Assembly: GCA_023136835.1 (NCBI GenBank)
Contig: JAGLQN010000171.1
Coordinates: 1-35,535 of the forward strand
Source: Candidatus Omnitrophota bacterium
GTDB taxonomy: Bacteria; Omnitrophota; Gorgyraeia; Zapsychrales; Zapsychraceae
DNA length: 35,535 nucleotides
Direction of reading: 5' to 3'
Shown: in pieces, positions 16,249 to 35,526 of the stretch
How the letters are laid out: the number at the start of each line of letters is the position of its first letter
Numbering within the stretch: the first letter of the stretch is position 1
The notes under the pieces: generated by a model
What the model was told of the DNA's origin: nothing
Seen by the model: the letters and a program-made list of their open reading frames with translations, nothing else
The model's database searches: none
Position numbers and translations under genes: made by a program

Positions 16249-16273
16249 AATGGGGGATTACCCATCCCCCATT
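16249..16273 (-). terminator. Intrinsic terminator downstream of the OmpA/coiled-coil genes
   Basis: A perfect 10-bp stem (AATGGGGGAT at 16249-16258 against ATCCCCCATT at 16264-16273) closes a 5-base loop. Read on the minus strand, the stem is followed at once by TTTTATTT, as expected for a Rho-independent terminator acting on transcripts from the coiled-coil/OmpA genes. On the + strand no T-run follows, so it is not bidirectional. The remainder of the 16220-16373 gap shows nothing else recognisable. Confidence 0.85.
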
Positions 16274-31133: not shown

Positions 31134-32233
31134 GAGTGTTTTTTCACGAGATGCTGATAGAGTTGAATGACTTTATCAGTCATTTTATCTGCCAAAAAAG
31201 TCTTCTTGATAAATTCCCGCCCAGCCATTCCGATTTCCTTCAAACGCTCCGGGTCCTGCAAAAGTTTGACGATAGCATCCGCCAGTTCACTGCTGTTTTC
31301 CGGTTCAACTAAAACACCGGTTTTCCCGTCTTCAATAAGGCTTGGTATTCCTCCGACGCGGGAAGCAACAACCGGCAACCCTGCTGCTTGCGCCTCCATA
31401 ATCGAAAGGCCCAGCCCTTCCTGCCGTGAAGGCATGGCAAAAATATCAAAAAGCGATAGCATTTCATATGTATTATTTACGATCGAAAAGAACCGGACAT
31501 GATCGCCTAAGTTCAGGCTCTGGACTTTTTCCCGCAAAACATTTTCCATTTTCCCCTCACCGACAAGTAATAATATGGCATTGGGAATATACGGCACAAC
31601 TTTATTCATAGCCTCAATAAGAATATCCTGCCCTTTAACATCGGATAACCTTGCCACAATACCGACGACCGGTTCATCCCCTAAATGAAATCGCGCGCGA
31701 CGCTCTTTCTTTCGGGCTCCATCGATCAAATCAAATTCGTTAAAATCGATCCCGCTCGCGATAAGAGAAACCTTTTCACGCGCAACTCTAAAGTCATGCC
31801 TTAAATGCCATTCAACAGCTTCACTGATCGCGATAACGACATCCCCCCAACACGGCACCAACCTCCGCGATAAGCGAGTTTTAAAAAAACCGTGACATGT
31901 CGAGACAAAAGGCTTTCCGGTCAGTCTCTTAAGCAACGCCCCCATAACTTGCGTAATCCTGGTCTGCGCATGAACAAGGTCAATTTTATTTTCCCGGATG
32001 TATCGCGACAACGGAAACAGGGCAAAATAAATTCTCGGATCAAGCTCTGATTTCGTGCGGATATTTAACGTCAGAAGTTTCGCCCCAATAGACAGGAACT
32101 CCTTCTCCATATTTCCGCCGCTGGTCACAATATGGACTTGGTGTCCTCGACAGATCAGCCCTTTGGTCATCGTAAATAAATAGCTGGTAATGCCTCCGGA
32201 ATTTAAATGGGTTGATAGAAAGAGAATATTCAC
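31130..32233 (-). CDS. Glycosyltransferase family 4
   Basis: A 367-residue retaining GT-B glycosyltransferase of family GT4. The N-terminal acceptor domain begins NILFLSTHLNSGGITSYLF, with the STCHGFFKTRLSRRLVP segment in the middle. The donor domain includes VVGIVARLSDVKGQDILIEA, LLVGEGKME, the EX7E motif (EGLGLSIME) in PSRQEGLGLSIMEAQAAGLP and VGGIPSLIEDGKTGVLV. The start is GTG at 32233, overlapping the stop of the upstream GT4-GT9 fusion as GTGA. It resembles the GT4 half of that fusion (shared HAxxRxxxx then TCHG blocks), so the two may be paralogues. It probably builds a surface glycan or LPS core; donor and acceptor unknown. Confidence 0.92.
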   Translation of the reverse strand: MNILFLSTHLNSGGITSYLFTMTKGLICRGHQVHIVTSGGNMEKEFLSIGAKLLTLNIRTKSELDPRIYFALFPLSRYIRENKIDLVHAQTRITQVMGALLKRLTGKPFVSTCHGFFKTRLSRRLVPCWGDVVIAISEAVEWHLRHDFRVAREKVSLIASGIDFNEFDLIDGARKKERRARFHLGDEPVVGIVARLSDVKGQDILIEAMNKVVPYIPNAILLLVGEGKMENVLREKVQSLNLGDHVRFFSIVNNTYEMLSLFDIFAMPSRQEGLGLSIMEAQAAGLPVVASRVGGIPSLIEDGKTGVLVEPENSSELADAIVKLLQDPERLKEIGMAGREFIKKTFLADKMTDKVIQLYQHLVKKHS

Positions 32234-34332
32234 GAATGCTCCTCGATTAATGACTTGATCTCGCGCGCGACTTCATCAGGATGGATATCTTTCATGCAGG
32301 CGTGTGTTAAGATCCGGCACCGTGAGCTGTAACACGGCGCGCACGCCAATTTCTTCTCGAGAACAATAATCTTTTTCGCGGGCGGAATGTGCCGTCGGGA
32401 ATCTGTTGGGCCGAAAAAGGCCACTACCGGGACCTGCATGGCTGCGGCAACATGCAAAGGCGCTGAATCCGGGGTCACAAAAACTTTGCACTTCTTTATG
32501 AGCGCCGCGAGTTGCAGGATATTGGTTTTCCCGACAAAGTTTGCCGGTTTAGACTTTGTCATCGATAAAAAATGCTGGGCCAACGGCTTATCTTTTTCTA
32601 TTCCAGTAATGATAACCCGAATATTCTTCGCCGAAAGCATATCGCAAAGACGAGCCATATATTCAACAGGCCAATTCTTTGTCTGCCATTTTGCCGAAGC
32701 CGCGATATTGATCCCGACAATATCCGGATTATTCCCCAACCACTCCGAGTCCAGCAGCCTTTGGACATACTGCTTATTATCCGGCGAAGGCCAAAGTTCA
32801 AGAAACGCATTACCGTTATAATGAATACCGAGATTCTCAAGAACCTGAAACTGATGGGCAACGGGAGGCATGTCTTTGCGCGTATCTTTCACGGGATGTG
32901 ATAAAAGGCTCCCCCACTTTCCATTGTCATACCCGTAACTTTCCCTGCCGAAACTTAAAAAAGAAAGTAAATGGCTCTTGCGGTTATTTTGAAAATCAAT
33001 GACCACGTCAAAACGGTATTTCCTGAGTTTCTTTGAAAGCTTCAACACTCCAAGCCATCCGCGGTCCTTATCCTTAACATCGTAGACAATGATTCCGTCC
33101 AAATAGGGGCAATTGTGCAAAATCCTCATCGACTCTTTCCCAACCAGACAATGGATCCTCGCGCGTGGAAACTTTTTCCGGATAGCCTTTAAAGAGGCCG
33201 TAACTAAAACAACATCCCCCATGGACCCGATTTTAATAACGAGAACGTTCATTGATCTTAAAAGATCTTCATAAACCTTGATCGTACTTGAAGCCATATG
33301 CTCAAGCGTAAAATTATTCCCGAGCTTTTCTTTCGCGCAAGAAACCAGACGGGTTGCCAAGCCCCGGTCATTGGCAATACGTATAACCGCATTGGCCATA
33401 GCCTCCGTATCCTTTGGCAAAACAAGCAATCCTGTTTTTTCATCATCAATGATATCAACAACCCCTCCGACTTTTGTCGCGACTACCGGCACGTCCGATG
33501 CCTGTGCCTCTAAGATCACGCGCCCAAAAGCTTCTTGCGTAACGGTTGATAAGACGAGGATATCTGTCTTTGCTAGAATTTGAGGAATATCCCGCCGGTT
33601 ACCGAGGAATTCAACATGGCTTTCAATCCCCAGACGGCGCGCCAGCAGCTCTAAGTCCTGCTTATTCGAAGCCTTTTTAGCCGGCGCATCTCCAACAATC
33701 AAAATATTGGCATAGGGAACGGTCCGTATTACTTTCGCCATCGCCTTAAGAAAGAATGAATGCCCCTTGAGCACTGTTATCCGTCCTATGATCGCGATCG
33801 TGCATCGAGATTTTCCGCCAAAAGAATCCCTTCGAACTTTGAACTTTTCCAGGTCGACGCTCCTGGGAATACAGCGAATACCGCGCGGTAAAACATTGAA
33901 ACGGTCGATCATGTGCCTGCCGATGACCTTGCTAGGAACAATCACCAGCTTTGACCAGCCCATGACTTGGCTAAAAATACGATTCTTGTAATGACCGTGA
34001 CACGTCGTAATAAAAACTGCTTTTGTTTTACGGCAGGCAAAATAGGCGATCCATGCCGGAACACGCGACCGGGCGTGAACAATATCAATTTTCTCCCGAC
34101 GGATAACATCGCGCAAAGCTTTAACATTCTCAAGCATTGTCCACAATGACTTTTTATGGACTGGGAGAGAATAATGGCACGCCCCCAGAGACTCTAGCCC
34201 GGGAACAAGCTCTCCTCCATTAGAAACAACAACGGCCTTGTGACCGTGCTGGACCAAATATTTGGCAAAATCAACCGTGCCGGTCTCAACCCCACCGACA
34301 TTGAGTTCTGGAATGACCTGTAATATGTTCAT
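32230..34332 (-). CDS. Bifunctional GT4-GT9 glycosyltransferase fusion
   Basis: A 700-residue protein (from the ATG at 34332) with two complete glycosyltransferases. The first half is GT4: MNILQVIPELNVGGVETGTV, ITTCHGHYKNRIF, IAIIGRITVLKGHSFFLKA, and EX7E in TQEAFGRVILEAQASDVPVV. It ends VYEDLLRS, like a normal GT4 terminus. The second half begins at once with MNVLVIKIGSMGDVVLVTAS, a normal GT9 start (codon at 33250-33252), then NIAASAKWQTKNWPVEYM, VTPDSAPLHVAAAMQVP and the cysteine tail CAPCYSSRC to ACM. No stop separates them. A GTG at 34356 is an alternative start, but it lies in the centre of a palindrome, so I reject it. The last four bases overlap the next GT4 gene. Confidence 0.9.
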   Translation of the reverse strand: MNILQVIPELNVGGVETGTVDFAKYLVQHGHKAVVVSNGGELVPGLESLGACHYSLPVHKKSLWTMLENVKALRDVIRREKIDIVHARSRVPAWIAYFACRKTKAVFITTCHGHYKNRIFSQVMGWSKLVIVPSKVIGRHMIDRFNVLPRGIRCIPRSVDLEKFKVRRDSFGGKSRCTIAIIGRITVLKGHSFFLKAMAKVIRTVPYANILIVGDAPAKKASNKQDLELLARRLGIESHVEFLGNRRDIPQILAKTDILVLSTVTQEAFGRVILEAQASDVPVVATKVGGVVDIIDDEKTGLLVLPKDTEAMANAVIRIANDRGLATRLVSCAKEKLGNNFTLEHMASSTIKVYEDLLRSMNVLVIKIGSMGDVVLVTASLKAIRKKFPRARIHCLVGKESMRILHNCPYLDGIIVYDVKDKDRGWLGVLKLSKKLRKYRFDVVIDFQNNRKSHLLSFLSFGRESYGYDNGKWGSLLSHPVKDTRKDMPPVAHQFQVLENLGIHYNGNAFLELWPSPDNKQYVQRLLDSEWLGNNPDIVGINIAASAKWQTKNWPVEYMARLCDMLSAKNIRVIITGIEKDKPLAQHFLSMTKSKPANFVGKTNILQLAALIKKCKVFVTPDSAPLHVAAAMQVPVVAFFGPTDSRRHIPPAKKIIVLEKKLACAPCYSSRCRILTHACMKDIHPDEVAREIKSLIEEHS

Positions 34333-34341
34333 AGTAAACCC

Positions 34342-34370
34342 GTAAGGACAGCACACTGTGCTGTCCTTAC
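34342..34370. repeat. Perfect 29-bp palindrome (REP-like) before the GT4-GT9 gene
   Basis: The arms GTAAGGACAGCACA (34342-34355) and TGTGCTGTCCTTAC (34357-34370) are perfect inverted repeats around a single C, able to form a hairpin of 13 bp with a 3-base loop. It fills most of the 69-base gap between the ELM1-like gene and the GT4-GT9 fusion and ends nine bases before the ATG. No T-run follows on either strand, so it is not an ordinary terminator. It may be a REP-type dispersed palindrome, an mRNA processing or stability hairpin, or an operator. Confidence 0.85.
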
Positions 34371-34401: not shown

Positions 34402-35526
34402 CTAGATAACTTTCCTTACCGCCTCAAGAATGATTTCATCATCATTAATTTGTTTCGTTTGAATTTTACCTTTGGCAACATCGTAGATGGACTGGCCGAG
34501 ATGATTGACATCCGAAGAAAGAACAAAACCTTGCGCATTAAGCCGTTCGGTAAAAGCCCGATGCTTATTCTCACCTTTTAAAACTTTCGCTATCAACAGC
34601 GGCGAGAAAACGATTGTATTCTTCCCCGAACTGGCCGCTTCCGAGACCATGGAAAGGCTGTCTCCCGACACCACAACAATATCCGAAAGCCCGAGGATGC
34701 CACCAACGGCCTCCGAAACATTTTCGCGATTGGCCAATATGAGAAGCGGGCAATTGGGATGTTTTTTAAATTCCTTAAAGAGAAGTTGCTCGATACATTG
34801 CGGTGTCCTGCGTGACGTCGTTATTAAGATATCCATATTGATCTCGGTCAAAACCTCCTTGATCTGTCGGATCAATATTTTGATTTGCCGCTCGCTTAAA
34901 TACACAGTTTTGCCGTCGCCACCAATAAAAAGACCGATCTTCGCCCTGAGATTATCTTTCAAATGAGAGTACCTTAAAAGCAAGGCCTGTGATTGATCCT
35001 TAAGATATCCCGACATAACCAAATTAGGCGACGCATATGTAATCGCAAAAAGATTCTTTCCCTTTTTTCTTTTTGGTTCGTCATGCTGAGGCAAAACAAC
35101 CAAATCAAAGCGCCCATAATTCAATAGACCAGGCTTGAGGATCACAATACTTTTCGCGTTACTATCGCGCGACAAAAGATTATTGATCCCGGCAATCGAT
35201 GACCCGCAAGAAATGATGAAGTTCGCTTTCATCGTCGTAACCCGCACAAAGGATTCTGCCGTTAGGAACCATTTTAAACATTCAAGCCTGCCCTGATAAA
35301 CAAACGGATGTGACAGCACACTCAGAACAGAAAACAAGCGCGCCTTAAACCGGCTCTGAAAGACAATCAGAACAATCTGTATTGTTGCTTTGATCGCGCG
35401 CTCTGCCAGCGCTTTTTCGGTCATTTGGGCAAGGCATTGAGACTGACGCAGATGGCCCGTCTTCCCATCGCTGAGGATTGAAATATTCGCCTCATTGGAA
35501 TACTTCCATATCTTATAAAACCACAT
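34402..35526 (-). CDS. ELM1-like putative nucleoside-diphosphate-sugar glycosyltransferase
   Basis: This resembles the ELM1 family (mitochondrial-fission ELM1-like in plants, putative glycosyltransferase in bacteria). The N-terminal ISILSDGKTGHLRQSQCLAQ is the family hallmark. Other features are FIISCGSSIAGINNLLS, FDLVVLPQHDEP, FITTSRR-type ILITTSRRTPQCIEQLL and VVVSGDSLSMVSEAASSGK, the last a GT-B donor-site-like motif. The ATG at 35526 gives 374 residues, but the frame stays open to the right edge nine bases further on, so the true start may lie outside the window. It is followed by the palindrome and then the GT4-GT9 fusion, and probably belongs to the same LPS or surface-glycan operon. 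Biochemical function is not established as far as I know. Confidence 0.82.
   Translation of the reverse strand: MWFYKIWKYSNEANISILSDGKTGHLRQSQCLAQMTEKALAERAIKATIQIVLIVFQSRFKARLFSVLSVLSHPFVYQGRLECLKWFLTAESFVRVTTMKANFIISCGSSIAGINNLLSRDSNAKSIVILKPGLLNYGRFDLVVLPQHDEPKRKKGKNLFAITYASPNLVMSGYLKDQSQALLLRYSHLKDNLRAKIGLFIGGDGKTVYLSERQIKILIRQIKEVLTEINMDILITTSRRTPQCIEQLLFKEFKKHPNCPLLILANRENVSEAVGGILGLSDIVVVSGDSLSMVSEAASSGKNTIVFSPLLIAKVLKGENKHRAFTERLNAQGFVLSSDVNHLGQSIYDVAKGKIQTKQINDDEIILEAVRKVI

Follow-up and report, generated by a model that had tools for sequence, protein, structure and literature searches.

A family of REP-like palindromes with paired tags, seen from an ELM1–glycosyltransferase junction in Omnitrophota

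Short palindromic repeats and their transposases

Small dispersed repeats of cyanobacteria, described by Elhai and colleagues in 2008, are said to be 20–30 nt long and scattered through their genomes, with compensatory changes and nested insertions; the palindromes reported here are likened to them by this description and not by sequence. The GTAG-tagged REPs are characterized, in the portions of the study cited here (Di Nocera et al. 2013, PMC3733652), as dispersed elements of 20–40 bp that form subfamilies with complementary changes, occur also within genes, build dimers with the tags facing outward, and were reported from the PVC phyla among others. In the same portions their tag is unpaired and located at one end, and their stems mostly span 6–9 bp, with one family reaching 12–13 bp. 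Group 3 of the REP/TnpA-REP systems is summarized as short, generally perfect palindromes adjoining GTAG, whose Y1 transposase cuts single strands at CT (or CA) (PMC8266576, in the section on this group), and an account of the rayt genes states that these are always flanked by two inverted REPs (PMC2817692, in the passage cited).

The family to which the present palindrome belongs aligns with these systems in several respects. At 28–29 bp, with at least 14 sites in the source genome (G000) and 56 cores in a high-copy relative (G151), its copies are short, dispersed palindromic repeats of the 20–40 bp class. They resemble the GTAG-tagged REPs, as portrayed in those portions, in size, dispersal, complementary stem changes, intragenic copies, and the dimers of G151, but differ in that the tag within the genus often lies in the stem at both ends, that stems extend up to 14 bp, and that the focal copy carries GTAA/TTAC instead (PMC3733652). 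Like the group 3 elements as outlined in that section, they are short, generally perfect palindromes with GTAG; unlike them, they have the tag inside the helix, and no cognate transposase was found adjoining the focal family (PMC8266576). The genome does contain Y1 transposases akin to REP_Tyr_transpos, as in the RAYT systems of the cited passage, but flanking by focal-family palindromes was not found at the 35 loci inspected (PMC2817692). The focal palindrome is a doubly tagged variant of a REP-type element; an earlier note on this DNA, which read it as REP-type, was right in kind, while the mechanism is unproven. New here are the pairing of the tags at both ends and the subfamily differences at sites shared between species. 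A search by phylum name, within the literature consulted, returned no mention of REPs in this lineage, to which REP biology is hereby extended in a symmetric, doubly tagged form.

The palindrome at the ELM1–glycosyltransferase junction

The window, i.e. the whole stretch of 35,535 nt that was analyzed, carries the following features around the palindrome:

34342..34370, no strand assigned: perfect, REP-like palindrome of 29 bp, subfamily GTAGGGACAGCACA/TGTGCTGTCCCTAC (sequence and family comparison)
34342..34355, plus strand: left arm, GTAAGGACAGCACA (inverted-repeat scan)
34357..34370, plus strand: right arm, TGTGCTGTCCTTAC (inverted-repeat scan)
34333..34341, minus strand: 9-nt spacer to the glycosyltransferase ATG, GGGTTTACT on the minus strand (comparison with G004)
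32230..34332, minus strand: downstream gene, GT4 + GT9 fusion glycosyltransferase (GT), 700 aa (ORF and Pfam)
34402..35526, minus strand: upstream gene, ELM1-like (PF06258), 374 aa (ORF and Pfam)

The palindrome consists of GTAAGGACAGCACA-C-TGTGCTGTCCTTAC, and the perfect 14+1+14 arrangement that the earlier note had described at 34342-34370 is confirmed, with 14/14 pairs matched and no equal in 40 dinucleotide shuffles. It is the longest perfect short-range inverted repeat of the window and the only one with arms of at least 14 (loop ≤8), against 0 in those shuffles. Relative to its subfamily, the focal copy shows a paired difference at position 4, A-T in place of G-C, and its ends are GTAA/TTAC. 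Among the window's gaps of at least 15 bp it is the strongest inverted repeat, followed by 16249-16273 with arms of 10. The latter site, located in a 154-bp gap, is itself a perfect 10-bp inverted repeat, AATGGGGGAT/ATCCCCCATT, with a 5-nt loop.

Both neighboring genes belong to a codirectional minus-strand run. The ELM1-like gene ends at 34402, leaving a 69-bp gap to the GT gene, whose ATG occupies 34332-34330 on the minus strand with 9 bases between it and the palindrome. Pfam assigns Mito_fiss_Elm1 (PF06258) to the upstream product and GT4-type and GT9 (PF01075) domains to the downstream one; coordinates, Pfam and the starts of relatives' genes agree with the placement given earlier, nine bases before the ATG of a GT4-GT9 gene and after an ELM1-like gene. 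Relatives' GT frames begin at the corresponding ATG; the ORF list prefers a GTG at 34356, inside the palindrome. A ribosome-binding signal of the GT gene, if outside the hairpin, would have to fall in the 9-nt spacer 34333..34341.

The RNA fold in a 91-nt context has z = -3.98, and the focal hairpin folded alone reaches -20.9 kcal/mol. No T-run is present on either side of the palindrome, an absence already remarked upon in the earlier note and upheld by both the sequence and the terminator scan. The site scan revealed no terminator-like or promoter-like site coinciding with the palindrome, and no Rfam family matched it at E ≤ 1.

A dispersed family in the genome and the genus

The focal palindrome is one member of a dispersed family of 28–29 bp palindromes of the form GTAGGGRC....GYCCCTAC. 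The count of its arms across the genome, proposed in the earlier note, came out both ways: the exact sequence is single copy, and the family occupies at least 14 sites. A search with the 21-mer core (≤3 mismatches) gave 4 sites in the genome and 1 in the reversed control, which alone would suggest a near-single copy; the family emerges once the inner stem is left free. The pattern GTAGG-N16-23-CCTAC occurs at 7 sites in the genome versus 38 in the reversed control, so that the bare number of matches proves nothing, and 6 of the 7 sites are paired through the unspecified interior (7–9 of 9 inner pairs; the seventh, 2 of 8). The pattern GGACAG...CTGTCC has 9 sites in the genome versus 1 in the reversed control, several of them being other palindromes or non-palindromic. 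Other GGACAG...CTGTCC palindromes of the same genome, two of the three longer, lie at L007:1485-1547, L006:1495-1528, and L010:1499-1524 and do not have the GTAG borders of the family.

A covariance model built from 9 copies, R1, matched each of the five congeneric genomes at E ≤ 1. With 150 candidates scored in each of G000, G003, and G004, the genus list comprises at least 44 sites, namely at least 14 in G000, 12 in G003, 15 in G004, 2 in G001, and 1 in G002, a low copy number of 1–15 listed per genome. Eight weak sites (E 0.1–0.8) were left off this list (G003 C5, C137, C66, C1, and C11; G004 C77:18758; G001 C95 and C171), the equally weak G000:C427 was kept, two pattern matches (C113 and C163) were added, and one of the listed sites, G004:C62b, falls within a longer palindrome of a different kind.

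Queries spelled with the letters of the focal copy (AGG before ACAG) proved too narrow, as the subfamily consensus GGGACAG does not fit them; such a query had 0 matches in viral contigs and 1 in species genomes, on a Murdochiella contig and inside a longer palindrome. The consensus 29-mer of the focal subfamily had no match in viral contigs, and two other subfamilies are present in 9 and 2 viral contigs.

Anatomy of the repeat

Across copies the outer stem GTAGGG[A/G]C and its complement are fairly constant, and the inner stems belong to CACA/TGTG, GTTT/AAAC, GTCT/AGAC, ACGG-type, ACCGG-type, and ACCC-type forms. The stem was evaluated on 52 chosen copies, drawn from the genus list (37 of 44 sites) and from the phylum loci (15 of 29); the copies dropped were identical, oddly sized, or type-repeating. 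On these, a 14-pair structure leaves 95.7% of cells paired, compared with 37.5–45.7% when slid, and 11 of the 14 pairs have changed on both sides; the stems of the subfamilies differ by complementary changes. The score for covariation, 0.562 compared with 0.189 when shuffled and ≤0.178 when slid, is to be read with the origin of R1 in mind: a model built from symmetric copies samples one-tagged copies too thinly and itself selects for part of the covariation. Of the five measures, that of further pair types was matched by 35 of 500 shuffles. Model-independent support comes from the GTAGG-N16-23-CCTAC pattern and from a scan for GTAG-bordered palindromes in G151 and G259, in stretches chosen partly by R1 matches.

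The borders are sharp: pairing ends at the tag, with no outward extension at 35 of the 44 genus sites. GTAG is found at both ends of 24 sites, at one end of 15, and at neither end of 5, the focal copy with its GTAA/TTAC being among the last. All four tag pairs are matched in the focal copy and at 26 of the 44 genus sites; the tag is thus not the unpaired one, outside the stem, of the described REPs.

Occurrence in the phylum

In the phylum sample, where filters were strict and 26 candidates were scored for each genome, R1 matched at least 43 of 285 genomes (the source genome included) at E ≤ 1e-4, and several distant genomes have an identical 28-mer in common. GTAG-bordered palindromes number 29 versus 1 reversed in the G151 stretches and 18 versus 0 reversed in those of G259. 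In G151 (302 kb), GTAG lies at one end of 40 of the 56 cores, at both ends of 12, and at neither end of 4; of 64 tags, 37 directly follow a TC. Some cores are arranged head to head in pairs, and in a few of these pairs the spacer is similar. The same core in this genome looks like a classical GTAG-tagged REP. A family dispersed at all three levels, genome, genus, and phylum sample, and the GTAG-REP anatomy of G151 support the designation as REP-type. G151 also contains another GTAG-bordered repeat, GTAGGTTGAACCTCGTAGGTTCAACCTAC and near variants, at C1:6275, C6:7168, C19:8907, and C44:13774.

Shared sites and lineage-specific copies

Copies occur between genes and, in frame, within them, and their presence differs among congeners. 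At least 10 of the 44 sites lie inside coding frames, i.e. those of nine scanned proteins and of the YbeY of G002; 8 of the 9 scanned proteins exceed the Pfam cut-off, as YbeY, TPR (three times), IF-2B, YjeF_N, GcpE, and NAD synthase. No target-site duplication was found over the 44 sites.

Four G000 sites have a counterpart in another species: the ELM1–GT junction, a site in a TPR gene, a site in ybeY, and C101, the last at gap level only. The TPR site is exactly common to G000 (C163) and G004 (C47). Between these copies, one pair survives through an A/G difference in one arm and a T/C difference in the other, two amino acids differ, and a third difference breaks another pair; half-changed forms of the kept pair are present at other G004 sites. 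The ybeY copy, in frame and within a loop of variable length, is present in G000 and G002, and no palindrome is found there in G001, G003, or G004; G004 has GCAGGGAC at the insert's place, possibly a remnant. C101 shares its gap between convergent genes with G004:C4, but the two are unequally far from the neighboring stop codon, and we do not claim that the site is identical. For both the C347 and the G001:C168 copies, one species has the palindrome and the other lacks it; the flanks are too diverged for insertion borders. The ybeY copy of G000 (G000:C134:5057-5105; L090:1501-1549) contains 21 extra nt mid-palindrome that are absent from the G002 copy and look like a nested insertion.

That the junction copies belong to different subfamilies and that the TPR site shows a paired change raises the possibility, which we regard as doubtful, that REP sequences at fixed sites are swapped in place. 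Were this the case, REP exchange, transposase-driven or hairpin-templated, would use only the shared outer stem, and doubly tagged palindromes could be processed on either DNA strand. The few sites shared by sister species allow one to ask how REPs change, whether by insertion, exchange, or hairpin-templated repair.

The junction in relatives and the role of the hairpin

Conservation at the junction, a further check proposed in the earlier note, is lacking: a family copy is found there in one congener and not in others. G004 has a copy there at the identical 9-nt spacing, albeit an imperfect one of another subfamily with 2 mismatched pairs; its spacer, AGGTTTAAC, is identical to the focal GGGTTTACT at 6 of 9 positions, and its hairpin amounts to -14.5 kcal/mol when folded alone, with another fold predicted in context. 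The nearest relative, G002, whose ELM1 is 90% identical, has no palindrome at the junction. G001 has no family copy there; a TPR gene stands between ELM1 and GT, and an unrelated imperfect hairpin (13-nt arms) lies ~26 bp before the GT ATG. Neither ELM1 nor a close GT match was found in G003. Unrelated hairpins also occur at the ELM1–GT junction in L030 and L035, and 25 more distant downstream stretches (L028-L053 minus L045, a contig end; L038 without a visible GT start) contain no family member. The TPR gene of G001 (C57; L027, L213) has homologs in G000 (C163, 47% identical) and G004 (C47), off the ELM1–GT contigs, each with an in-frame family palindrome.

We favor, with a probability of about 0.77, the view that the palindrome is a REP-type element that spread in trans by way of a presumed mobilizer and now forms an intercistronic hairpin of probably small effect. 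A TnpA-REP/RAYT-type Y1 transposase would spread copies in trans via single-stranded DNA, recognizing GTAG together with the hairpin, which fits the absence of target duplication; stems would then stay paired because sequence from other copies replaces them and/or because template switching corrects the hairpin. Within the operon-like run, the mRNA would fold into a hairpin of ~-21 kcal/mol just upstream of the GT ribosome-binding region, with an effect that is at most modest, either protecting the 3' end of the ELM1 part or slowing GT initiation.

An intercistronic RNA hairpin that is selected to tune ELM1 versus GT expression and is kept by compensatory change would likewise account for the perfect stem with its z of -3.98, for the 9 nt to the ATG in both G000 and G004, for the rank of the palindrome as the strongest inverted repeat among the window gaps of ≥15 bp, and for the unrelated hairpins at the junction of G001 (~26 bp before the GT ATG), L030, and L035. 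We nevertheless consider it improbable. The junction is not conserved, which argues against an essential role of the hairpin: no palindrome exists there in G002, no family copy in G001, and no family member in the 25 more distant stretches, and the G004 copy, with its 2 mismatched pairs, has a hairpin of just -14.5 kcal/mol and another fold in context. Family members moreover reside inside unrelated genes. The reasoning that perfect arms betray recent mobility is weak, given that the exact sequence is single copy and that a different subfamily occupies this spacing in G004.

Readings that dispense with both a mobile family and a selected RNA are much less probable still. A perfect dyad upstream of a gene, with outer half-sites that recur, is what a protein-binding operator for a dimeric regulator on duplex DNA would look like, and the earlier note had entertained this; yet the half-sites vary by subfamily, even between G000 and G004 at this junction, copies lie inside the YbeY, NAD synthase, GcpE, and TPR genes and between convergent genes, and no promoter-like site is near the palindrome, so that an operator is disfavored and given very little weight. 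A palindrome can be perfect and precede a gene without being an operator. Local template switching in replication, which can both generate perfect stems and mend those already present according to the part of PMC8794818 cited here and would explain paired changes without selection, may help to keep stems perfect; as the sole, self-made origin of the palindrome in the absence of a mobile family it is equally hard to credit, in view of identical subfamily sequences in distant genomes and of borders at the same GTAG/CTAC ends. An intrinsic terminator or attenuator between ELM1 and GT, for which the strong hairpin speaks, ranks lowest, as the stem has no T-run on either side and the scan gave no terminator-like site.

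Candidate mobilizers

Y1-type transposases, whose presence the earlier note had proposed checking, do occur in the genome: PF01797 (Y1_Tnp) has 5 matches, 4 over the cut-off and the best one with two internal stops, and a further 54 matches in 22 relatives. Ten scanned proteins matched the NCBIfam model REP_Tyr_transpos, nine below the cut-off and one just over it. The proposal that such a RAYT mobilized the palindrome fared less well. Among 35 transposase loci (5 of 5 from the genome and 30 of 54 from the family, ≤1.5 kb on each side), 0 had a palindrome of the focal family; R1 gave one good match, at L104, where the palindrome is longer and of a different kind, and a weak one at L015 (E 0.44). 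In G151, 7 Y1 domains are not significantly close to their nearest cores (P = 0.063; 4 lie within 1 kb, versus 2.1 expected). Yet of 29 Y1 loci inspected in the high-copy genomes, 4 are accompanied on one side, within ~1 kb, by a GTAG-bordered palindrome, these being L164 and L176 (G151), L168 (G028), and L178 (G106). A transposase may act on the family from elsewhere in the genome, the assemblies being incomplete.

The palindromes at L168:1149-1176 (GTAGAGACGC...) and L178:1987-2022 (GTAGGGGCCGC...) are GTAG-bordered ones of other sequence, a few hundred bases from the Y1 domain. TIR-flanked Y1 transposases ('TIRYT') are also described, with the motif GGGGWSAS, in the portions of PMC3733652 cited above, and two Y1 genes of the genus resemble them in being flanked on both sides by long palindromes, which are not of the focal family. 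That of L015 is flanked at 723-759 and 1957-1991 (CGGACTCC/GGGGTCCG), and its GGGGTCCG does not fit the motif; that of L109 is flanked by palindromes at 762, 1238, and 1956 (CTGACCCC/GGGGTCAG), and its GGGGTCAG fits GGGGWSAS.
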